IMG/VR virus record: IMGVR_UViG_3300047668_002652
Span: 1 to 25,641 of that record
Origin: a virus
Direction: 5' to 3' (one strand)
DNA: 25,641 nt
This document shows positions 1-25,641 of this stretch, one piece after another. The first letter of the stretch is position 1. Each line of letters starts with the position of its first letter. The position numbers and the translations under genes were made by a program. The notes under the pieces were generated by a model. It saw only the letters and a program-made list of their open reading frames with translations, searched no databases and was not told the DNA's origin.

Positions 1-3000
1 AAGCCCGCAAAAGACGACCTATCTTCAGCATTTATTTTTTCTATTATGTTCGGGTGAGTGCTGTCCCATACTGTATAGTCTTTATTCCCAGCAGCCCTTT
101 CTATAAATTTTGCACTAAAACCTATCCCACCACTTTCTGCATAAATATTCTTTAATTTTGATTGATCAACGAAAGGTTTATTACCAAAGTAAGCGTTTTC
201 TAGAATTTCCCTTGGTGAATTATCAAAGGCAGTTGTGACTGCGGGGGCAAAATTAGGAGCAAAACCACCGGCCTTAGAGTGACCTTGTATAGTTTTTGAG
301 TTTCTTGTTGCATTCTTAATCCCTTCTGGATGATCACGTTTTACTGCAGAGAAGTTATTTTGGGTATTTCCGTCCCTAACGTATGTACCGACCTGTTTAT
401 TATAATCAACTACAGGCCTTCCGCCTAGAGCTCTTTCGGTCTTTATAGCTCTAGAAACCCCTTCGCCAATAGGAGAAAAAGACGGAACAAAACCAGTAGC
501 GGCTCCTCCTATTGGCGCAATCGTTATTTTTTCCACAGCTCTTTCTAGAGCGCTAGCAGCTTTTGACAGAGAATCCGCTGAACCGCTAAAATTTGAACCT
601 TTTAGTGAACCAATTAACGCTTCATTTAATTTCTGCTGGTGCTCAGCATTTTTTTGAGAATTTTTTTCATTAGTTTCGGAAAGACTTTGAATGCTTTTGC
701 TTAATTCATCCGGATTCAAGCTTTTGTTTACTGCCTCGGCAATTTCTGGTCCTATGTTTAAGGACTCTGCAATTGAAGAGCCTATTACTTCGGCCATTTT
801 TGAAGCTAGTAAGCTAATGCTATCTTCTTTTATTTCTATTAATTGAGCCGCTTTTACTTCTTTTTCTCCTTTCACCCCTCCTTCTTCTCGTCTAGCTAGT
901 GCGTCTTGGAGAGATTTTAGTGCTGCTCTGAAAAATTTAGACCTATCAGCAGAAAGACCTTTAGTGCCTCCTGCTCGGACCAGCTTACTAATCTCTATTC
1001 TTAATTCTTCCAGCGAACCTCCTCCTATTTCCTTACCGGTAATTCCCGAAAAAGCAGCTCTAAGATTTTCCAACTCACTAGCTTTAGCTTTAATCTCGGT
1101 TAGCTCTGCTAATATATCCTGATCAGCGCCTATAGAAATTAAAGTAGCTATACCGTTATTCATTTCAGTAATTTTTTCCAATGAAGTCTTTGCGGTTGTC
1201 CCGTCTTCTTTTAAAATCTTATCAAAGTTTTTGAAAACGTTTATTTGCTGTTCGCTAAACTGTGTGTTCCTTAAGGTCGCTATCTGCTGACTTTTTAAAG
1301 CTGCTAATTGAGCTCTAGCGCTAGCTTCTGCCATTTTTTGGCTTGCCACTTGAGTTGCGTTTATAGCTCTTAGTTTTTGCAAAGCTTCTAGCGCTACCTT
1401 TTTTTCTTCTGGGCTGCCTGTCTTCTGAACTTGAAGTAGCGCCGTTAAAGCTTCTTTGCTAGAAACGTTTCCTCCTTTAACCCCCTCTATCAAAGTCTTC
1501 ATACCTCCCGACAAGACGGTGCCTGACTCTTTGTTAGCTTTGATTAAATCAGATGCAAAAGACCTAAGAACCTTTTTTGTTTCTTGCGTTGATTTTAATA
1601 AATCGTTTTGTATTTTTGCTGCGGAAGTTCCTTTTATTGAATTTTCTTGAGTAACTGTACCGGTAGCTTGCTGCCTTTCTGATCTTGACTTAACATCTAT
1701 TTGACCGATATTATACAAAGCATTAAAAGCTCTATCAGAACTTTGTCCTGCAATTTCTAATGCGGTGCCCAGTTCATTTATTTTTTTACTTAAGTTTACT
1801 ACCGGATTTTGAGCTGCTTTAAAAGCGTTCTTTGCTGTTATTATTGCGCTAGAGTAATTTGATGAGGCTTGCACTTGCTTAATAATGCCTTGAGTTATAC
1901 TTTCGTTATTACGAATCCAACTCCTAGTTGGAGCGTCAAACTCCCCTAAGATATCCTGCAGCCCTAATAATGCACGAGAAGCGCTATTTGAGGAAGGGTC
2001 GAAATCTTTCAGTGATTTAGATAGCTTTTTAATCTTATCGTCTGAAAGTCCGGACGTTAATAAGTCGGACATTGATTTTATCTCATCGGTAAACTGACTT
2101 ACGTCAACGCCTTTTCCTACATCAAAAATGCCAAGAAATTGTTTACTGTCAAGCTCTTCATTGAATTTTTTAACAACGCCCGCAAAGTCATTCGAGAAAG
2201 TTTTTAAATTCTTTCCTTGTTCGGCCAGACTTTTAAATGTTTTTATAGACTCATTAAATTTATCAGTATCTCCAATACTATTTATTAAATCCTCAAAAGC
2301 TTTTGGATTAAGTGATCGTATACTCTTTGCTTGCTCAAAAATATTTTGCAATATTTTTCCAGAAGCTTCAATATCGCCTTTGCCTGTTGCGGCGCTAAAT
2401 TTAGCTGCTGAAGTTGCGAATTTATCCAAGCTCTCTATGTTTTGGCTAATTATATTTATAGACTTCTCTCTTGTAGCTATTTCTAACTCTAAAGCTTTTA
2501 TATTATTAACTTCCGCATCATATAAATTTCGGTATATGTCGTAAGCAATGCCGGCAGCAACACCAACTACCGCTAAGGCTTTACCCACTATGCCTAATTT
2601 ACCGATTAAATCTGGAAATACAGCGGCAAGTCCAGAGATGCCTGCTACGGTAGATTGCGTTCCTGTAGCGCTAACACCCATCGTGGAAGTTAATGTAGAT
2701 AAGGCGAATTCTAACGCAAAAACTTTACCTAGCAAACCATCAGACGATTTAGTTTGTTTTGATAGTGCGCCTGCTGTTTTTGACGCCGCCTTTCCAAGCT
2801 TTTTGGTCTCATTTGCCATCTCTTTGAATTTAGGAGACTGAAAATTAGTTTGCTGAATACCTCCTCCTGATATATAATTAGGAACATATCCTCCGGACAT
2901 TCCTTTTCCGTGATTTTTTGGATTCAAGCCTGTTGATATAGCTCTATCAACTCCCTGTGAACCGTTTAAAGGTTCGTCTCTGGTGTTAGCTACCAATAAC

Positions 3001-6000
3001 CCCATTGGGTTTTTAGACCCCTTCAGTCTTTTGTCTTGGTCTACATATACTTTTGCACCAGAACCCTGATCTGAAAGCACGCTTTTTTCACGAACTATAG
3101 ACTCCTCTAATGAATTAGCAAAATTAGGTACAAAGCCAGAAGAGGCGATAGCCATACCTTGATCCTTATCAGCGAATGAGCTTTTATTCAAAATAGCAAC
3201 CTCGTCCTCAAATGCAAATTTTTTAAATAAATCAGTATCAAGCCATCTTTTCATGTGAAAACCTATAGGCTTTTTTCTCGCTTGGTTGGCGAACCATTGT
3301 ACTGACTTAGCTTCGCTCCAATCCCTTCTTTTCATTAAGAAATTTACTAATTTATCAACCTTCCTAGGATTGTACATCCTTTTATGACTCATGCTTGTTT
3401 TTCCTATAAAACCCTGCTTAGATGGGTCTTTTGTAGTTGCAAAATCTCTAGCTGTTTTAATATTTGTCGAAGAAGATATTAAAGATGATGTTTTTTCATT
3501 CTCTACGTGAGATCGCAAATAGTCATGAAGAGTATTAAGATCATAGACGTCACTAGCTTTAAACTTTCTGGATCTACGGGGATCAGATTTGTATATATCC
3601 TTAGACTTCAAATTTGATCCTTTCGGCGCCTTTACTCCTCTAAATAAGTCCATAAAATTAGGAACATGGCCAGAAGCGAAACCTCTCTTAAAAAATGGCA
3701 AACCTTCAAGTTCTACCATTCTCTTTTCATTAGGGTCAACTCCTAAAGTCTTCAAGCTACTGATTAATTCTTGCTCTTCTCCAGATAAATATTCGCTTCC
3801 ATCGGCAGTTATGTCATCCTTATAGGAATCCAACTTCATCATTAAACCTGAAGGGTTAAAGGTTCCTTTGATTCTTGTTAATGGTGGCGATTTCTTAGTC
3901 TTTCTCGTTCTGTCTAATAACTGCTTTCCCTTAACAAGCACAGATGGTATTCTTGGCCCAACCACCGTTCCCGCGTCTATGTCAGAATATGGCCTTCCAC
4001 TTTTGTCTGCATTTATTAATGTTTTTAAAATGTTCCTAAAAATTCCTGCTCCTTCTCCGGCAAACCCCCTGATATATTGCACATCAAGAGTTCTTCTCCC
4101 CTTAATCGTCTTATCTTTTATCATACTATCTCGCCCAAAACCTTTTAACTTTTCCGCGTAATTAGGGGTGAATCCACTAGCTGCTGGAATTGTCTCGTCC
4201 GAGATCCCTTCAGATCTTTTAAGAATATCTTTGTTAAATATAGCAGACTCCTCTGAGCCAGCAGCCCCCTCTATTTCATTCGCGAAATTTGGCACATACC
4301 CTCCTGCTCGAGCAGGAATAAACCCAGAAGCCCTTCCTCCAGTCGGCTCTCTTATGAATTTTTTCATAAAGCTTAATTTATTACCAGTCCCACCTAAGGT
4401 AGTCTTAATGTCTCCAAATTTAGCTTGCTTTAACCCAAGCACCTCCTGCTCTTTTTGCGTAATGTTGTATAAATCCCAATTATCATTATCAAGCCTAGAG
4501 TGGTATGTCATTTCTTGATTATAAGCCTTAAGGCCGCTATTTAAAAGTTCTTCAAAAATTCTACCAGTAGAAGTTGACTTGCTTCCTTTGTTGTAAGCTT
4601 CTATCTGCTTGATATAATAATCTTTATTATTATCTAATATTTTTGAATAATTATTCCTCCAGTTGTCGTCTATTTTTGCGGATGTTTTTGGAAATATATC
4701 TTTATCACTGTTAAGTATATCCCCTATGTTTATATTACCTTTTCCTGTTTTTGGGATATTTTTTCCTAAATACTGCTTAATTCTTTCTTGAATTTCTCTA
4801 AATCCTATTTCAGTGCTGTTGGCCTCCGGCGGTCTTATCGAAACTGAATCGAACCCATAATGCGGCTCCTTTATGTAATTTTTAAGTTTTGGCCGTACTA
4901 TTGACTTGCCTTTTTCTTTGCCTAGATTTTCTATTTTAGAGCTCCAGTCTGGAGTTTTTCTTGAACTATTACTATAAATATAAGCGGCTGCATTACCAAC
5001 TATACCATACTCTTTACTCTTCGACTTAAAGTCTCCTTCTGTTATACTCGGATAATGCGTCCTACCAAAATTAGTTCTTGCGTCCTTATCTCTTGCAAAG
5101 TTATTGTTTATTACGTTTCTGTACTTTTCGTTTCTTAAATTTTTTATTAAATGAGGAAGTAATTTTTTCTTAGGAAACTGTTTTTTAAAATCTTTTTTAT
5201 CTTGATCGCTCCTTCTTGTTATGTTTAAAATATCAGAAACGTTAAATTGTGACCCTGTTTCAGGTTGAGATTTCATAGCTGCCTTAGACAGCCCATTATT
5301 GTCTTGAAAGACATAATTTGGAATAAATCCTTCTGACCTTGCAGCGACAGAACCTTGCCCCTTCTTTCTCTCTTTAGACCTCTCTCCCTTGGTCATTTTA
5401 TTTCCCGCTTCAAAAAATGGTCTCCAGTGCTGTTCGTAAATACTCTCTAAAGGTTCCTTGAAGTGGTTTTTATGACTTTTTTGAACTACCTCTCTAAGTG
5501 ATTGCGCTCCGCCAGATCTTTTCGCATCGCCTTTTGATATGCCATATCCTTGAAAAAATATATCTTGCATGTCCTTGGTGATTGGACCGCTTTCTTCAAA
5601 ATCCCAAATACCGTCATGCTTGTCTCTCCCTAGGCTCTTCGCGGACTCTAAACTCCCAAGTCTTAATGCGGATTCGAATATACCTCCCTCGACTGACGGA
5701 GAAACTATAGATTGATCAACGTTTGCCTTATCTCTTACTTGATTGACTAACCCTTTTCCCACTTCGTCCCCAAGTATTCCATTGTAAATTCTGGAAGCTA
5801 CAGAAGCTACGGCATTTGCTATATTAGGCTGTATTATATCGTTTATCGCTCCAGCTTTTCCTTCTACTTTGCTCGACACTTCAGGGCTTGACATTTCCGT
5901 TATAGAGGATGTTCCAATATTACTAAATGTAGTTCTCTTTCTTGCTATTACTGTTGAAATAAATTTTTTATCGTCTTTAGTCAACTTGGATCCTGATATT

Positions 6001-8126
6001 TTTTCAATAATTGAATTATTCTCTACAGGGGTAAATGCTGAGATCTGCTTTAACGAGGAAGACTGCCTACCCCTGACCCCTTTTGCAGAAAGCATTCCAA
6101 AGCCTCCTAATTGTCTCTCTACATCAATATCAAGACCGTCTTGAGACGTTAAAAACTGTTTATACTTCTTGTCTTTTTCTAAACTTGAAGCGAAGTTAGG
6201 TATATATCCACTAGCCACTGGAATCGCTCCGTCTGGAACTCCTCCAGATTTTTTAATCATATTCTTATTAAATATAGCAGAACCGCTACTACCCCCAAAT
6301 TTAGGGACTATTACTTCATCTGTGTTTGCTACTATAGTTTGATTTCTTCCTCCCCCCATTGGGAAGTTTTTTAATACTTTCGGCTTGGCTGATCTAGAAG
6401 CTCCTCCCTCTCCAGCAGATATTGCAGCTCTTTCTGAACTTATAGCTCCCTCTATTCCGTTTGCAAAATTTGGCACATACCCTCTTGATCGAGCAGGAAT
6501 AAACCCAGAAGCTTTTGCTGTTGAGCTTACAGCGGCTCCAATTGCGCGGGAACTTGATATTCTAGAAATTAATTTTTGCTGTAGCGCATAAGCGTTGTTT
6601 TGTTGTTTAATGGTTTGCAAAACCAACTCTTCTTTCTGCTCGTGACTAAGCGCCGAATTAGATATGGCCTCATATAAACTTTTGTTATTCTTCAACAGAA
6701 AGCCGATCTTAGCTTCAGTTTCTGCTATTTTATTAGTAGCGCTGCCAATTTTAAATATTTCCTTTACTGCTTTTAAGCTTTGTCCGGTAATAAATTTAAA
6801 GAGCTTAACAAAAGCTACACCAATTAAAATCAATCCGGGTCCAGATATAAAACCTCCAATAGCCTTGAACATTCCCTGCATTAATTTACTGCCTTTTTCT
6901 GGGTCTAAAGCTTGCCCCAAAGCCCCTGATATCGAATTAAATAAATTCAATAAATTCTCTATAGCTGGTGTCGCTATTAAACTTCCTAAAGTTGACGCTA
7001 ATTCCTTAGCGCTGACCGCAGCTTCGTTAATAAGAGTTGATAAAGTGCCTTGAAGCTTTTCATTTCTTCTGACAGCTTCGTCAGTTGCGCTATTTGATTG
7101 GGTTAGAGCTCGTTCGTATATACTATAATCACTTCCTAAATCCTTAACCAATGCTTTAAGGTTATTGATTTGAAAAACACCAGCTATCAATTCGTCTGTG
7201 AAAGCTTTTTGAGAGTCCGTTAAAGACCCGTAAACCCCTGAGTAATCTTTCAGAATGTCTAAGGCTCCCCTGATATTGCCAGCAGCATCAGTCGTAGCCA
7301 CTCCAATCTCCTCAAGAGCTTCTCTTACGCCTCCTCTTTGTAGTCGCGTAAAGATACTCTTAAATGCATTGCCTATAACAGCTCCTCCTCTAGCAGTTGT
7401 TTGCTGCACACTCGTAACGGCTGCGAGTAATTGATCTAAATCTACTTTTGCTGACTGTGCGGTTGCTCCGGCTCTAGCAAGGCCATTAGCCAAGTCTTCG
7501 GTACTTACGGCAAACGCAGCATCAACAGTGGCTAGTTTATTCACTATTTCAGTCGTCGTGATTGCGGTATCTCCAAAACTATTTACTGCAGCGGTTAAAG
7601 TTTCTACTGATTTGGCAGCCTCCATACCTGACAATCTAGTCAATATCATTGCGTCATTAATCCTGCCTAACGTCTCTTCTGCCCCCAAGCCCTGTCTAGA
7701 TAGTTCAACAGCAGCCTCAGCTACGGTTTGAAAACTTTGCCCCGTATTCTTTGCTGTATCAAAAAGCTTCGAAGAGAAATCTGCCAAGCTTGAGGCGTTA
7801 AGGTTTAAAATAACATTAATATCAGTAAGAGCTTTCTCGACCTCTACAGCGCTTGAGATCATGGCTTTAAAACCCTGCGTTACGGCATTAAGGACTCCAA
7901 CCGCAGCTCCGAAGGCTAAAGTACGAGCTACAGATGCATCCAGAGACTTTTGGAATTCTGCTATATCACCTGATATTCTCCCTAATGGCTGCCTAAACCC
8001 CTTATCATTAAGGGAGACCGACATTGGACGTATCTTCTTCTCGGCGGTGCGAACCTGCCGTACAATATCATCTGTTAGGCCGCTAGCGCCTACATTGATT
8101 TGAATATTTCCACTTCCTAATGCCAT
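1..8126 (-). CDS. Phage tail tape measure protein, TP901 type, with embedded enzyme-like cassettes (C-terminus beyond left edge)
   Basis: One frame stays open from ATG 8126 to the left edge, at least 2708 codons; the C-terminus is not seen. Residues about 70-400 look like the TP901/PhageMin_Tail core: helical, Ala-rich, with segments such as SRQGLGAEE and TARGGAVIGNAFKSIFTRL. Hydrophobic segments lie near 425-447 and 1835-1870, as is usual in tape measure proteins, which fix tail length and are ejected before the DNA. Residues about 1870-2540 are mainly charged helical, coiled-coil-like sequence. Between about 540 and 1750, and after 2548, ten G-aromatic-x-P-N-F/Y motifs punctuate non-tape segments, including nuclease-like and ADP-ribosyltransferase-like domains listed separately. 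AAGGAA six bases upstream is a fair ribosome binding site. Tape measure identity is strong from sequence, size and gene order; cargo function is inferred. Confidence 0.93.
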   Translation of the reverse strand, partial: MALGSGNIQINVGASGLTDDIVRQVRTAEKKIRPMSVSLNDKGFRQPLGRISGDIAEFQKSLDASVARTLAFGAAVGVLNAVTQGFKAMISSAVEVEKALTDINVILNLNASSLADFSSKLFDTAKNTGQSFQTVAEAAVELSRQGLGAEETLGRINDAMILTRLSGMEAAKSVETLTAAVNSFGDTAITTTEIVNKLATVDAAFAVSTEDLANGLARAGATAQSAKVDLDQLLAAVTSVQQTTARGGAVIGNAFKSIFTRLQRGGVREALEEIGVATTDAAGNIRGALDILKDYSGVYGSLTDSQKAFTDELIAGVFQINNLKALVKDLGSDYSIYERALTQSNSATDEAVRRNEKLQGTLSTLINEAAVSAKELASTLGSLIATPAIENLLNLFNSISGALGQALDPEKGSKLMQGMFKAIGGFISGPGLILIGVAFVKLFKFITGQSLKAVKEIFKIGSATNKIAETEAKIGFLLKNNKSLYEAISNSALSHEQKEELVLQTIKQQNNAYALQQKLISRISSSRAIGAAVSSTAKASGFIPARSRGYVPNFANGIEGAISSERAAISAGEGGASRSAKPKVLKNFPMGGGRNQTIVANTDEVIVPKFGGSSGSAIFNKNMIKKSGGVPDGAIPVASGYIPNFASSLEKDKKYKQFLTSQDGLDIDVERQLGGFGMLSAKGVRGRQSSSLKQISAFTPVENNSIIEKISGSKLTKDDKKFISTVIARKRTTFSNIGTSSITEMSSPEVSSKVEGKAGAINDIIQPNIANAVASVASRIYNGILGDEVGKGLVNQVRDKANVDQSIVSPSVEGGIFESALRLGSLESAKSLGRDKHDGIWDFEESGPITKDMQDIFFQGYGISKGDAKRSGGAQSLREVVQKSHKNHFKEPLESIYEQHWRPFFEAGNKMTKGERSKERKKGQGSVAARSEGFIPNYVFQDNNGLSKAAMKSQPETGSQFNVSDILNITRRSDQDKKDFKKQFPKKKLLPHLIKNLRNEKYRNVINNNFARDKDARTNFGRTHYPSITEGDFKSKSKEYGIVGNAAAYIYSNSSRKTPDWSSKIENLGKEKGKSIVRPKLKNYIKEPHYGFDSVSIRPPEANSTEIGFREIQERIKQYLGKNIPKTGKGNINIGDILNSDKDIFPKTSAKIDDNWRNNYSKILDNNKDYYIKQIEAYNKGSKSTSTGRIFEELLNSGLKAYNQEMTYHSRLDNDNWDLYNITQKEQEVLGLKQAKFGDIKTTLGGTGNKLSFMKKFIREPTGGRASGFIPARAGGYVPNFANEIEGAAGSEESAIFNKDILKRSEGISDETIPAASGFTPNYAEKLKGFGRDSMIKDKTIKGRRTLDVQYIRGFAGEGAGIFRNILKTLINADKSGRPYSDIDAGTVVGPRIPSVLVKGKQLLDRTRKTKKSPPLTRIKGTFNPSGLMMKLDSYKDDITADGSEYLSGEEQELISSLKTLGVDPNEKRMVELEGLPFFKRGFASGHVPNFMDLFRGVKAPKGSNLKSKDIYKSDPRRSRKFKASDVYDLNTLHDYLRSHVENEKTSSLISSSTNIKTARDFATTKDPSKQGFIGKTSMSHKRMYNPRKVDKLVNFLMKRRDWSEAKSVQWFANQARKKPIGFHMKRWLDTDLFKKFAFEDEVAILNKSSFADKDQGMAIASSGFVPNFANSLEESIVREKSVLSDQGSGAKVYVDQDKRLKGSKNPMGLLVANTRDEPLNGSQGVDRAISTGLNPKNHGKGMSGGYVPNYISGGGIQQTNFQSPKFKEMANETKKLGKAASKTAGALSKQTKSSDGLLGKVFALEFALSTLTSTMGVSATGTQSTVAGISGLAAVFPDLIGKLGIVGKALAVVGVAAGIAYDIYRNLYDAEVNNIKALELEIATREKSINIISQNIESLDKFATSAAKFSAATGKGDIEASGKILQNIFEQAKSIRSLNPKAFEDLINSIGDTDKFNESIKTFKSLAEQGKNLKTFSNDFAGVVKKFNEELDSKQFLGIFDVGKGVDVSQFTDEIKSMSDLLTSGLSDDKIKKLSKSLKDFDPSSNSASRALLGLQDILGEFDAPTRSWIRNNESITQGIIKQVQASSNYSSAIITAKNAFKAAQNPVVNLSKKINELGTALEIAGQSSDRAFNALYNIGQIDVKSRSERQQATGTVTQENSIKGTSAAKIQNDLLKSTQETKKVLRSFASDLIKANKESGTVLSGGMKTLIEGVKGGNVSSKEALTALLQVQKTGSPEEKKVALEALQKLRAINATQVASQKMAEASARAQLAALKSQQIATLRNTQFSEQQINVFKNFDKILKEDGTTAKTSLEKITEMNNGIATLISIGADQDILAELTEIKAKASELENLRAAFSGITGKEIGGGSLEELRIEISKLVRAGGTKGLSADRSKFFRAALKSLQDALARREEGGVKGEKEVKAAQLIEIKEDSISLLASKMAEVIGSSIAESLNIGPEIAEAVNKSLNPDELSKSIQSLSETNEKNSQKNAEHQQKLNEALIGSLKGSNFSGSADSLSKAASALERAVEKITIAPIGGAATGFVPSFSPIGEGVSRAIKTERALGGRPVVDYNKQVGTYVRDGNTQNNFSAVKRDHPEGIKNATRNSKTIQGHSKAGGFAPNFAPAVTTAFDNSPREILENAYFGNKPFVDQSKLKNIYAESGGIGFSAKFIERAAGNKDYTVWDSTHPNIIEKINAEDRSSFAG
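3192..3662 (-). other. ADP-ribosyltransferase-like segment inside the tape measure protein
   Basis: The segment starts directly at the linker motif SGHVPNF (Pro 1489) and ends about 20 residues before the next linker (Pro 1667). It contains MDLFRGV (R1496), then SLISSSTNIKTARDFA (Ser 1551-1553, Thr 1554), then FAFEDEVAIL (E1640-x-E1642). R, then an S-T-S-like strand followed by A-x-x-FA, then E-x-E near the C-terminus is the R-S-E signature of mono-ADP-ribosyltransferases. R to S is about 55 residues and S to E about 89, within the range I expect for the fold. Known phage ADP-ribosyltransferases such as T4 Alt are virion proteins injected with the DNA. Activity and substrate here are unknown. 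Confidence 0.55.
3912..4082 (-). other. Unassigned globular segment, weakly acetyltransferase-like, inside the tape measure protein
   Basis: Residues about 1349-1405, between linker motifs at 1321 and 1489, contain YIRGFAGEGAGIFRNILKTL, then DIDAGTVVGPRIP, then KGKQLLDR. A basic residue followed by a Gly-rich turn (R1353 to G1361), a helix, a strand and another helix recalls the acetyl-CoA binding loop region of GNAT acetyltransferases. The match is short and the Gly spacing is not canonical. The strongly patterned GTVVGPRIP stretch indicates a real folded domain rather than tape-like coiled coil. Confidence 0.3.
4263..4331. repeat. Direct DNA repeat copy 2 (pairs with 6444-6512)
   Basis: This is the second copy of the 69-base repeat, encoding ASGFIPAR-AG-GYVPNFA and IEGA. 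It is followed almost at once by the SAIFNK segment that also follows copy 1. In copy 1 the two blocks are separated by about 50 extra residues (roughly 565-615), so the two copies differ by an internal insertion or deletion. Confidence 0.9.
4389..4574 (-). other. PD-(D/E)XK nuclease-like segment B inside the tape measure protein
   Basis: Residues about 1185-1246 read TGRIFEELLNSG (E1192), then NDNWDLYNI (D1218), then KFGDIKTT (D1239-x-K1241). The spacing is 26 and 21 residues, close to segment A. Both copies share a G-x-IFE-x-x-L start, a W-D-aromatic or aliphatic centre and a G-D-x-K end, but little else, so they are divergent paralogues or independently acquired relatives. The segment lies between linker motifs at residues 936 and 1279, at the C-terminal end of a cassette of about 340 residues whose first part I do not recognise. 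Confidence 0.6.
5512..5693 (-). other. PD-(D/E)XK nuclease-like segment A inside the tape measure protein
   Basis: Residues about 812-872 read GGIFESALRL (E818), then HDGIWDFEES (D842), then SKGDAKRSGG (D867-x-K869). A Glu in a helix after IFE, an Asp after a hydrophobic strand, and a D-x-K about 25 residues later is the order of catalytic residues in the PD-(D/E)XK restriction-endonuclease-like fold. The E-to-D and D-to-DxK distances are 24 and 25 residues. The segment lies between linker motifs at residues 643 and 936. A second copy in the same protein has the same signature, which makes chance less likely. Fold and activity are inferred from motifs only. Confidence 0.55.
6444..6512. repeat. 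Direct DNA repeat copy 1 (pairs with 4263-4331)
   Basis: This 69-base stretch matches 4263-4331 at a constant offset of 2181 bases (727 codons, so in frame), with seven mismatches that I count, about 90% identity. It encodes the double linker ASGFIPAR-SR-GYVPNFA plus the following IEGA segment. Such identity inside one gene, flanked by unrelated sequence, points to a recent duplication or to gene conversion. Confidence 0.9.
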
Positions 8127-18857: not shown

Positions 18858-20480
18858 TTAATATTTAATGTTTATGTTTTCTTTAGAGAAAGCTTGTGTA
18901 AATTTTTGACGAAGAGATGCATCTTTAGTTGAGGCTGCTTCGTTGTTGTTAGAAATACTAGCAGAAGACTCTTCTTCTACGGATTCTAAAACTTCTTCAG
19001 CGACTTCTTCAGCGACTTCTTCGGTTTTTTCAGCGACTTCTTCGGTAGAGGCTTCGCTCGTGGATAAACCTTCAACTCTTTTCTGCACTGCTGCTTCAAG
19101 TTTTTCGTTGAATAATTTTTCCTGTTCTTCAATATGAGCTTTTGTCTTGTGGTTCCACATGACTGTTAGCTTTTCTTGATAAGAAGCAAAAGCTTCTTCT
19201 GTGTTTTCGATATCTGAAATTTCAGAAGCTACGATTTTAAGGTCTTCTTCATTCAAATCAAAAGCTTCTGTAACAGATGCCATTCTTGAGTTAAAGAGGT
19301 CCTTTGCTTCGCGCAAACGCTTTTCTTCGGCCAGTTCGTTCCATTGTAATTCAGTAGCTGTTAATTTTTCCTTTAGGCCTTCAACTTCTTGAGAGAGGGC
19401 TTCATGGCGCTCGGTAGCCTCGGAAATAGCTTTTTCTTTCTCAGCTTTTTCGTCTGACCATTGAACGTCTTTTTCTTTAATAGCATCCATCATAACTTTA
19501 GAAACGCTAGCGACGGCTTCTTCGAATTGTTGACTGTCGCCAATTTTTTCCGAGAGCATGCCTTCGATTTGTTTTAGTAGATCTTGAGTATCCATAGTTA
19601 GTTTGTTTGTTGTGTTTACATCTTTTTTATGTAAAAGGGAAGTTTTATTTTGAGTTTCTTTTGCTTGGTGATACGAATCCATGTTGTTTACATGAAATTT
19701 TTCTGCTTGAGTTTTGTCTTTTTTAATTAAAGTCTTTTCTTGGTTTTCTACTATCACCCCTTCAACTTCTGCGGCTGGATTAGAGGTAAAGCCTATTCCA
19801 AGTGGGTAAATATCTCCGACTACTAATCGGTTGACTAAAGTTCCATCTTCCATTTGCCCTTCTCCGTCATAGGCTCTTAGGTATTTTTGAAGCTCCTTTA
19901 TCTGAGCTTCGTTTGTAACGATCTCGGCTTCTCTTAAGTCATTACTTCCTACAGCTATATAATAATCATTAAAGCCAATTTCCCAGCTAGCTGATATTAA
20001 ATTATGAAATTCATCACCAGAACCTGTCTTTTCTAGCATTGCCGCAAAATCTGGATTTACAATCTTATAGACTAAAGCTCCCAGAGAAATATTAAATGGA
20101 TCATTATCGTCTCCTACTTGATCAGCTTGTAAAAGTTCGCTTGTATTAATATCACTAAATGAAGATGAGACTATGTGTCCTACAACCTTTTCTTTATTGT
20201 GTTCTATATTAGTTGGCTTATGTATGAAGTATTCAGATACTGCTAGTGCTGTCTTAGTATCTATTCCGTCTCCATTTTTATTAAACTTATTAACTACTGC
20301 TGCATTGAAAGCTACTCCGAGCAAATCAATATTCTTAGTTAGGTCTACATCTTCAGGTATTAAAGGTTTTAAATTATCTAATGAAGCTTTACTTATATTA
20401 AATCGCTTGCAGGTTCCATCAACACATGAGGCTGATATTTCATTAGAAAAAGAACTTATATACTTAAATGGCGTACTCAT
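18858..20480 (-). CDS. Prohead protease fused to scaffold
   Basis: A 540-residue two-part protein. Residues 1-245 look like a herpes-type/prohead serine protease: NIEHNKEKVVGHI (His94) and ISASWEIGF (Ser163 or Ser165 as nucleophile candidate), followed by strand GDIYPLGIGFTSNPAAE. Residues about 296-500 are a long, strongly acidic coiled coil of scaffold type (KQIEGMLSEKIGD, EKAEKEKAISEATERHEAL), with a short EEVAE repeat at about 475-500 and a basic end. Prohead proteases cut scaffold and capsid subunits during maturation. An in-frame ATG at 19595 (Met296) begins exactly at the scaffold part, so a separate scaffold product is possible, but no Shine-Dalgarno site precedes it. The protease family is inferred from the H and S motifs. 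Confidence 0.85.
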   Translation of the reverse strand: MSTPFKYISSFSNEISASCVDGTCKRFNISKASLDNLKPLIPEDVDLTKNIDLLGVAFNAAVVNKFNKNGDGIDTKTALAVSEYFIHKPTNIEHNKEKVVGHIVSSSFSDINTSELLQADQVGDDNDPFNISLGALVYKIVNPDFAAMLEKTGSGDEFHNLISASWEIGFNDYYIAVGSNDLREAEIVTNEAQIKELQKYLRAYDGEGQMEDGTLVNRLVVGDIYPLGIGFTSNPAAEVEGVIVENQEKTLIKKDKTQAEKFHVNNMDSYHQAKETQNKTSLLHKKDVNTTNKLTMDTQDLLKQIEGMLSEKIGDSQQFEEAVASVSKVMMDAIKEKDVQWSDEKAEKEKAISEATERHEALSQEVEGLKEKLTATELQWNELAEEKRLREAKDLFNSRMASVTEAFDLNEEDLKIVASEISDIENTEEAFASYQEKLTVMWNHKTKAHIEEQEKLFNEKLEAAVQKRVEGLSTSEASTEEVAEKTEEVAEEVAEEVLESVEEESSASISNNNEAASTKDASLRQKFTQAFSKENINIKY

Positions 20481-23092: not shown

Positions 23093-24964
23093 TTACGCCA
23101 CAAACATTGGAGTGAATGTTGCCTGAACATTACTTTGCTCAACATTCATCATGTCGTAATATATTTTTATCATCCAATTCCCTAATACTAAAGCGGAGTA
23201 AGAGTCTTTCCTAGCCTTCTCTGGTCCGGTTGTTCTTTTTAGGTTGTCTGGAAGATCAAAGGTCTGCGTTCCATGCGCAGTAGTTTTAATTTGTATCAAA
23301 GCACATTCCCCTTTTGTTTTTTCCATTAAGTCTATTTGATATTCTACTAGATCAATCATTTTAGCGGCAGCGCTTTGCTTTTCATCCTCTATACTTCTTA
23401 AAAATTTTAATTCCTTGATTGGTATCTTTTTATTTCTTTGCTTCTGGTAGTCGTCATTAACAGCTCTAGATCCAAAGAAAATTCGCTTGTGGTCAAAATT
23501 AGCTTGCAATAATTCATTAGAATTTCTAATCCATTGGGAAGTCGGCTTGCGCAAGATGCAGATTCTTTTTTTATCTAAGTTATATTCTAATTTAGCATCG
23601 CGCAATGCCTGCTGATAATTTTCCAAATTATCAAGTTCTACACTAATAGTTTTAATCTCTAAGTTGTTTTGCTTGAAAAGACTGCTCTCATTGCAGGCGT
23701 TAAGGAATTGCACTCCCCCGTTATAGTCTCCTACCATTGCTACTATATTAAAATTTGTTAACAAATAATGTAAATAGAAAATATGATCTTTCAGGCGAGC
23801 GCCTGACATGGCGTAGTTATGAACTAAAGTGCCGTGCTGGTTCCCGTCATTAAGCTTGAAAACCTGAATGGCAAAGTCATCAGAGCTTTCGCTCTCTGCC
23901 CAACTAGGGTCAAAAGATAATAAATATTTATCAGATGGCTCTCCAGCGACCTCCACGCATGGGCTCTGGCCGTCAGGGACAGTACAGGAAGCCATTTTTG
24001 ATATCTTAAAGTACCCAGAGCTATCATCAGTAAATACAGCGCCAAATTCTCTATCAAACTGACTCTGACTCATACTTGCTCTAGCTTGATTGATTAAATT
24101 TTGATCATAAAGTTGCTGCGGAGCACAATCATAACTAAAATGCATAATAGTCCTGTGCGCAGTGCCTTTCTCCGGTATATCGCCATTTATTAATAATTCA
24201 AATTTCTGATATAATTTATACATATATTCAAATTTATACGAAGCGGAAGAAAGCATAATTAATTTATTGTTCGGCCAGACATGTCTGTCCACCTCTTTCA
24301 TTTTTCCCTCTTTTATCATTCGAGTTTCTAAATTATACAAATCCTCCCTCTCGGTTGGATTTTCAACAACAGAAAGAAAAGGAACTATAACTTCGTTATA
24401 AATCCTTTCTGGCATAAGGAGAAACTCATCAATTATAATTCTATGAAATCGAAAACCACGAAGTTTCTCTCCGTCGCCCAAAGGTAATGCATGAATCTTG
24501 CTGGCTCCTATTTCTAAAGTCCACTGGTCATTAGCTTTTGATTTTCTAGTCACACATTGAGCTAGCATAGCTGCTTCTGGCTTATTAAGTATGTCTTCTA
24601 TTTTCTTAAATATCATTTTTGCCTGACGGAAAGATTTTGATACGATACCAATTTCTACTCCTTGATTCAATAAGGCGTCAAGAAAAGCAAACACTCCAGT
24701 GGTAAAAGATTTCGACATTCCTCGACTCCATACTCCCATAAAATAATCTGATTCTAGCATTGCCTTGATTGCCATATGCTGAAAGGGAAAGAGCTTTACG
24801 CCACTAAGCATGTCCACTGCAAAAGTAGTATTGCCCCTCAAGAATTCATAAAGCAATAGTTTAGCTTCGTGCTCTTCTATGAAACCTTTCTTTGCTAAGA
24901 TTTTTTGGTTGATATTCGAAGAGTACTTGATTCTCTCTTGTTGCTTTCCTTCTTCCCAGCTCAT
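23093..24964 (-). CDS. Terminase large subunit
   Basis: A 623-residue DNA packaging ATPase-nuclease. The N-terminal ATPase has a Walker A variant WSRGMSKSF (residues 79-87, Ser where Gly is usual before the Lys), Walker B IIIDE (176-180) and a coupling motif LSSA (238-241). The C-terminal RNase H-like nuclease has SFDPSW (Asp352), VGDYNGG (Asp413) and KDSYSALVLG (Asp587) as metal-binding candidates. It cuts the concatemeric genome and drives it through the portal encoded next. It overlaps the preceding subtilase gene by ATGA, so the two are translationally coupled. No small terminase subunit gene is visible; it may lie beyond the right edge. Confidence 0.95.
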   Translation of the reverse strand: MSWEEGKQQERIKYSSNINQKILAKKGFIEEHEAKLLLYEFLRGNTTFAVDMLSGVKLFPFQHMAIKAMLESDYFMGVWSRGMSKSFTTGVFAFLDALLNQGVEIGIVSKSFRQAKMIFKKIEDILNKPEAAMLAQCVTRKSKANDQWTLEIGASKIHALPLGDGEKLRGFRFHRIIIDEFLLMPERIYNEVIVPFLSVVENPTEREDLYNLETRMIKEGKMKEVDRHVWPNNKLIMLSSASYKFEYMYKLYQKFELLINGDIPEKGTAHRTIMHFSYDCAPQQLYDQNLINQARASMSQSQFDREFGAVFTDDSSGYFKISKMASCTVPDGQSPCVEVAGEPSDKYLLSFDPSWAESESSDDFAIQVFKLNDGNQHGTLVHNYAMSGARLKDHIFYLHYLLTNFNIVAMVGDYNGGVQFLNACNESSLFKQNNLEIKTISVELDNLENYQQALRDAKLEYNLDKKRICILRKPTSQWIRNSNELLQANFDHKRIFFGSRAVNDDYQKQRNKKIPIKELKFLRSIEDEKQSAAAKMIDLVEYQIDLMEKTKGECALIQIKTTAHGTQTFDLPDNLKRTTGPEKARKDSYSALVLGNWMIKIYYDMMNVEQSNVQATFTPMFVA

Positions 24965-25641
24965 CTCGGTCTAGCTGGATCGTTGTTGTATCGCTCGTCC
25001 CAGTCTATACCCCAGTCAACTGGTTCGTATTCCTCTTCAGCGTATTGGTAAATCACAATACCTAAACAAACTAAAGCAAAAACGCCAGCGACAATCCATG
25101 CGATATTTTTCTTAACAAAAGAGCTCTCCTTTTTTGGAGGGGGCGTAGAGCTCGGAGGTTCTGTCTTTGGCTTGGGTGTTGTAGTGGTAGGCTTAAAAGT
25201 CGTGGTAGTAGGTTTAAGAGTGGTAGTAGTAGGCTTAAGAGTTGTGGTGGTAGGTTTGGAGCTTTCTCCTGTTATTAACTTTTCGATATCGACAACTCCA
25301 TAACCCCAGTCGTTGTCTTTTCCGACATTACCCTTATCATTAGTATACTTCAGTAAATGTTGACGTATATCTTCGACTGTCTTACAGTCATTCTTTCCTG
25401 TCTCTTTTTCTTGCTTTCTATGTTTTGAAATCATTAAAGCGATTATAGCGGCCATGAATGGGCAAGCCATAGACGTTCCACTCAAGGAAGCATAAGAGTT
25501 TTTTAAATAAGTACTATATATATTAGCTCCGGGAGCTGCCCAATCAACCTGTGAACCACGAGAAGAAAAGCCAGCAATTTTTCCATACTGATCAAAAGCG
25601 CCAACAGCAATTGTTTCTGGGAAAGCGGCAGGGTATCCGAC
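24961..25641 (-). CDS. Subtilisin-family (S8) serine protease with C-terminal membrane anchor (N-terminus beyond right edge)
   Basis: Only the C-terminal 226 residues are inside the window; the frame is open to the edge. The visible part matches the end of a subtilase catalytic domain: YPAAFPETIAVGAFD, FSSRGSQVDWAAPG, then SGTSMACP with the catalytic Ser (codon 25471-25473), then WGYGVVDIEKL. The catalytic Asp, His and oxyanion Asn lie outside. After the domain come four LKPTTTT-type repeats, a Pro/Ser linker, one strong hydrophobic helix (IAWIVAGVFALVCLGIVIY) and an acidic 27-residue tail. The residue usually His after the SMA-x-P stretch is Phe here. The topology suggests a membrane-tethered protease, which is unusual in a packaging operon. 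Its substrate is unknown. Confidence 0.92.
   Translation of the reverse strand, partial: VGYPAAFPETIAVGAFDQYGKIAGFSSRGSQVDWAAPGANIYSTYLKNSYASLSGTSMACPFMAAIIALMISKHRKQEKETGKNDCKTVEDIRQHLLKYTNDKGNVGKDNDWGYGVVDIEKLITGESSKPTTTTLKPTTTTLKPTTTTFKPTTTTPKPKTEPPSSTPPPKKESSFVKKNIAWIVAGVFALVCLGIVIYQYAEEEYEPVDWGIDWDERYNNDPARPR
25170..25258. repeat. 21-bp repeats encoding LKPTTTT units
   Basis: Four imperfect units of 21 bases give four Lys-Pro-Thr4 blocks between the protease domain and the membrane helix of the subtilase. The low-complexity Pro/Thr composition is that of an extended stalk. On the minus strand the codons vary mainly in third positions, so the protein repeat seems maintained rather than newly expanded. 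Confidence 0.85.

Follow-up and report, generated by a model that had tools for sequence, protein, structure and literature searches.

The right-hand end of a 25,641-nucleotide stretch of viral DNA (IMG/VR virus record IMGVR_UViG_3300047668_002652, positions 1 to 25,641; hereafter the window, to which coordinates refer unless a contig is named) carries the 3' part of a gene for a subtilisin-like (S8) protease with a predicted C-terminal membrane anchor. On balance we judge it probable that this protease is an intracellular-type, self-inhibited subtilisin held at the inner face of the host inner membrane and that it serves an accessory role in host manipulation; the molecular description, taken without the role, we regard as likely. 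Subtilisins are familiar chiefly as secreted enzymes. In this lineage of uncultured viruses, a subtilisin of the intracellular type is retained and comes with an anchor, a stalk that changes freely and a tail that is conserved. Should the predicted topology be true, this would be a spatially restricted viral protease, undescribed in the open-access literature that we searched, and a test case for how a phage may attack membrane-associated proteins of its host or of rivals while leaving its own assembly unharmed.

The protease gene and its viral family

The protease frame (24961..25641, minus strand, as are all its parts) is free of stop codons over 226 aa and open at the right edge of the window. 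Its product matches Pfam Peptidase_S8 (PF00082; 1.7e-20, profile positions 164-288) and phrog_3677, 'protease' (3e-26). The C-terminal part of the subtilase catalytic domain (25273..25641, corresponding to PF00082 positions 164-288) includes an intact GTSMA with the catalytic serine (25465..25479), which is invariant in the family alignments. It is followed by a Pro-rich stalk (25135..25257), composed of four KPTTTT[L/L/F/P] units (25174-25257) and then KPKTEPPSSTPPP, whose DNA was scored by Tandem Repeats Finder as 3.2 copies of a 21-base period with 82% matches. Next come the lysine-rich segment KKESSFVKKN (25105..25134), a single predicted transmembrane helix, IAWIVAGVFALVCLGIVIY (25048..25104; hydropathy 2.64 over 19 residues; helix 356-378 in the structure model), and an acidic C-terminal tail of 28 aa (24964..25047) with the conserved motif IDWDERYNND at 24979-25008. 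The stop codon overlaps the terminase start in an ATGA (24961..24964). The GTSMA, four-unit stalk, single C-terminal helix, acidic tail and ATGA overlap listed in the initial annotation are all borne out.

The missing 5' part, comprising the first 176 codons and with them the catalytic Asp and His and the oxyanion Asn, was taken from contig L002, which extends beyond the edge of the window and differs from it by 3 mismatches in 6000 bases. The complete protease in L002 is 402 aa long, with a stop codon a few codons upstream of the start, and its DTG, NGHQTHC, AAGN and GTSMA motifs complete the catalytic set of Asp, His, Asn and Ser; its N-terminus contains neither a signal peptide nor a hydrophobic stretch. 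Looking rightward, as the initial annotation had proposed, thus recovered all of the catalytic residues and no signal peptide. The full-length protein covers the whole of PF00082 (7.5e-46, positions 1-288) and homologues are found in dozens of viral contigs, so that the S8 match is not due to chance. The Asp/His/Ser triad and the oxyanion Asn are invariant in the alignments, and the structure model has an S8 fold. These complete catalytic residues uphold the proposal of a tethered subtilase, which appears to be active; that proposal had been tied to retention of the Asp and His and to presence of the gene in at least some relatives, and both hold.

A profile built from 12 members retrieved 66 loci in viral contigs, 52 of which have the anchor (about 42 distinct sequences). 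The stalk unit varies across homologues (PTTTT, PEPK, PEPE, PQPK), as would be expected of a spacer. The tail motif, in contrast to the changing stalk, is kept: with near copies counted, 42 of 52 anchored loci have it, in its fullest form as YIDENGNVDWDKKF or PYIDENGNVDWDKKFEEE and minimally as a D[WFI]Dx[KR]-like sequence, and it is retained even in members with only 42-47% overall identity; it is absent from L112, L116, L117, L019, L123 and L126, where the protein stops right after the helix. The tails of anchored members can have as many as 43 residues, which is much for a simple tail anchor. Apart from the protease, nothing encoded in the fetched flanks carries the motif: the single match, in L048, is likely a protease copy cut by the contig end, since it has the same terminal letters as the L124 protease. 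Four cysteines (C84, C108, C167 and C236) are invariant in the alignment.

Distant viral relatives (L156-L165 and L168-L171, on contigs of up to 527 kb) are soluble, with no stalk, helix or tail. On a tree of the catalytic domain the anchored forms fall into one group (support 92/90), which is why we think that the anchor probably arose once. Directly upstream of the soluble S8 gene, large viral contigs encode a conserved, moderately hydrophobic protein of about 150 aa (L156:5550-6002, L159:5489-5968, L162:5513-5959, L170:5560-5976 and L171:5508-5987), possibly a membrane partner of the soluble enzyme in trans. Two further loci (L153:4635-7155 and L154:4647-7155) have a tandem S8-like protein (358/362 aa) without catalytic motifs beside the active anchored protease; each gene of the pair is followed by a small related ORF, and the arrangement resembles protease/pseudoprotease pairs.

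Predicted topology and proposed self-inhibition

Neither a signal peptide nor an N-terminal hydrophobic segment was detected in any anchored member with a complete N-terminus, and no twin-arginine was found in the N-termini of anchored members. The hydropathy of the C-terminal helix ranges from 1.75 to 2.96 in these proteins. Counted over 15 residues on each side of the helix, lysines and arginines average 3.95 on the N-terminal side and 1.07 on the C-terminal side, and the net charge bias favours an N-in/C-out orientation in 41 of the 42 distinct anchored members; in the window, the lysine-rich segment before the helix is the corresponding signal for the cytoplasmic side. From hydropathy, charge bias, a signal-less N-terminal domain and a single C-terminal helix, we predict a tail-anchored protease with its catalytic domain in the cytoplasm, at the host inner membrane, and its tail outside. 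Invariant cysteines are compatible with a reducing cytosol.

A profile search of solved structures returned two intracellular serine proteases as its top matches, 7xr8 (4.7e-85) and 7y6m (7.2e-84), in alignments that begin at family-profile positions 2-3, that is, at the very N-terminus. Intracellular subtilisins (ISPs) carry a short inhibitory propeptide whose LIPY/F motif lies across the active site (PMC6220982). The viral protease resembles them in having no export signal, and an [LVI]Px[hydrophobic] sequence lies near the N-terminus of every anchored member in which that end is complete. However, the strict LIPY/F pattern, [LVI][IFLV]P[YFH], does not occur in the anchored clade, whose members have LPx[FYIV]; it occurs only in some of the soluble viral relatives, as LLPY. 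We therefore call the protease ISP-like rather than an ISP.

An AlphaFold2 model built from 51 sequences had a pLDDT of 88.6, lowest in the stalk; an earlier model from 12 sequences (pLDDT 62) was discarded. Residues 3-5 and 10-15 form strands in the model, which superposes on subtilisins with an overall Z of about 42-45: about 44 for pro-subtilisin E and pro-Tk-subtilisin (model 1..301) and 41.9 for the B. clausii ISP precursor (model 1..307). Its N-terminal segment aligns with the N-termini of ISPs and is superposed on ISP precursors from residue 1, which we take as support for its predicted position in the active-site cleft. Self-inhibition by this segment is an analogy backed by the model, given that the anchored clade departs from the strict LIPY/F pattern. 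We think it likely that the protease is made in the cytoplasm, that its C-terminal helix inserts to leave a tail-anchored protein with the protease inside and the tail outside, and that the N-terminal segment, by occupying the active-site cleft, would keep the enzyme inactive until the segment is removed. The outside tail (YIDENGNVDWDKKF-like) might, in addition, dock on or sense a partner across the membrane and so aim or switch the cytoplasmic protease, the target being, for example, an incoming phage or a defence protein bound to the membrane; this would define a new class of viral inner-membrane protease, but we hold the idea to be rather doubtful.

Genomic contexts and possible roles

The gene downstream of the protease encodes a T4-type terminase large subunit (23093..24964, minus strand; PF03237 1.6e-10, phrog_2 4e-26), which has no close relatives among cultured phages (identity under 27% among the matches listed). 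This order is found in the present clade only. The initial annotation had coupled the protease to the terminase and suggested a survey of related phages. Among loci found via the terminase, at 88-100% terminase identity, most indeed carry the protease immediately 5' of it, either overlapping by 4 or separated by 0 or 19, so that the coupling stands for one terminase clade; in L009, L015 and L022, however, with 89-91% terminase identity, a 318-aa gene abuts the terminase in its stead. The 318-aa product is of C2H2 type at its N-terminus and contains a DTREQKP motif that, read by eye, is suggestive of an ERCC4-type nuclease; it has no Pfam match over the cut-off. In this lineage, any gene that comes before the terminase tends to overlap with it.

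As a general rule the coupling fails. In another clade the protease lies 3.5-5.3 kb upstream of the terminase; it follows a PhoH gene in most of L119-L150, lies near one ribonucleotide reductase gene in L145, L147 and L166 and among unrelated genes in L114, L115 and L118, and in G003 and G004 is about 64 kb from the terminase. Anchored members occupy at least four gene contexts, no gene partner is constant across loci, and placement labels on the catalytic-domain tree require 9 changes where the possible minimum is 6. An S8 match was present in 12 of 40 records; all of these records are fragments, so that others may carry the gene beyond their ends. The varied contexts, together with the other gene that abuts the terminase in relatives, make the terminase coupling a local feature; the protease is an optional accessory gene outside the DNA-packaging machinery. 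In L143, L149, L151, L152, L155 and L167 it sits between the genes for the large and small subunits of ribonucleotide reductase.

Accessory distribution, shifting contexts and cytoplasmic tethering lead us to favour a host- or rival-directed role over virion processing, as does the clade that places the protease beside nucleotide-metabolism genes. During infection the protease may cut targets located on or close to the inner membrane, conceivably membrane proteins of the host, defence effectors bound to the membrane or proteins that a rival phage injects, and the tether might restrict its reach and thereby spare cytosolic phage assembly proteins. A narrower form of this explanation, in which the protease is a specific anti-defence or superinfection-exclusion effector that destroys one membrane-bound defence protein or one injected protein, would suit a patchy, relocating accessory gene with a conserved catalytic core and tail. 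Yet no anti-defence gene was recognised beside the protease, matches to a defence model (IetS) reflect the common S8 fold, and we consider so specific a function unlikely.

Action outside the envelope, as in the envelope damage or surface-protein removal suggested by the initial annotation, is contradicted at the sequence level by the absence of a signal peptide and by the N-in/C-out charge bias in 41 of 42 members. It would call for an exported, mycosin-like protease whose catalytic domain lies outside the inner membrane and serves late envelope damage or the stripping of surface proteins. S8 domain, Pro-rich linker and C-terminal helix follow one another as in mycosin, the mycosin model TIGR03921 matches all 51 members, and hydrophobic signals at the N-terminus are common in cellular relatives that have a C-terminal helix. 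The anchored members, however, lack both a signal peptide and a twin-arginine, their charge bias is the opposite of that required, the mycosin cut-off is missed (166 versus 278.75 bits) and the four invariant cysteines suit a reducing cytosol, which leaves export improbable.

We give a similarly low probability to a virion or head-assembly protease that is made with the terminase and acts at the membrane to process virion proteins, such as those of the head or the tape measure. Its place directly before the terminase, with the ATGA overlap, fits such a function in this clade, as does the upstream position at 3.5-5.3 kb in another; but some close relatives have another gene at the site, the protease is found elsewhere, including between ribonucleotide reductase genes, and an overlap with the terminase tends to form with any preceding gene in the lineage. 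A prohead protease gene would be expected to keep its place in the head module across relatives, whereas this gene changes position and is missing from the site in some close relatives. Moreover, the head region downstream of the terminase holds a separate conserved gene of 540 aa (18858..20480, minus strand), kept with or without an S8 gene next to the terminase, whose sequence makes it a candidate head protease/scaffold fusion: H94, H102, S163 and S165 are invariant, and 3 of 20 members weakly match the scaffold peptidase Phage_GPO (best 1.7e-4). It is not recognised by PHROGs and has weak matches only, mostly coiled-coil, among solved structures. This gene fits a prohead-protease role better than the S8 gene does, and its presence leaves the earlier suggestion of virion-protein processing unsupported. 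Cutting of tape-measure linkers had also been suggested. The tape measure (window 3-8126) does contain ten G[FYH]xP[NS][FY]-type (PNF-type) repeats, but the link to the protease is unsupported because they are also present in the tape measure of G019, a record (fragment) without an S8 match. On our reading the protease is neither a packaging nor a virion-maturation enzyme. That it is functionless cargo, decaying or acquired by chance, as its patchy distribution and the one tandem paralogue without catalytic motifs in L153/L154 might hint, is hardly credible, for the catalytic residues are retained in the sequences checked, the frames are intact and the tail motif persists in distant members.

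Comparison with known proteases

No phage subtilase with a membrane anchor is described in the open-access literature searched. The subtilases of cultured phages (Moorella phage MTATph1 and Bacillus phages SP-15, FADO, vB_BcoS-136 and Goe3) share 36-40% identity with the catalytic part, with coverage of the query below 80% in each. They are without a strong C-terminal membrane helix, that of Goe3 ending in a short hydrophobic, basic tail, and within the 10-11 kb around each no annotated terminase gene adjoins. The soluble S8 proteins on viral contigs (L156-L165, L168-L171) are 34-43% identical, most with LLPY/LPPY-type N-termini. Among 75 scored cellular relatives, a limited sample, no signal-less N-terminus occurs together with a C-terminal helix, N-terminal hydrophobic signals being frequent in those that have the helix. 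The arrangement described here was not seen among the cultured-phage or cellular relatives examined. Matches to the IetS defence model are weak and explained by the common S8 fold.

Mycosins (MycP, of type VII secretion) share with the phage protease an S8 domain, a Pro-rich linker, a C-terminal helix and a short tail, and the NCBIfam model TIGR03921 matches all 51 members. They are, however, extracellular tail-anchored proteins with N-terminal signal peptides (PMC10924467), facing outward, whereas the phage protease has no signal peptide and is predicted to face inside, in the opposite orientation. Identity with mycosin was rejected on this absence and on a TIGR03921 score of 166.1 bits, below the equivalog cut-off of 278.75 bits. 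The ISPs (B. clausii 2wv7/2x8j, Planococcus 6f9m, 7xr8 and 7y6m) resemble the phage protease in having no signal peptide, in their S8 core, which the model matches, and, by prediction, in a short N-terminal segment in place of a prodomain. To this plan the phage protein adds a stalk, a membrane helix and a conserved tail, and its N-terminal motif is LPx[FYIV] rather than the LIPY/F of ISPs (PMC6220982).
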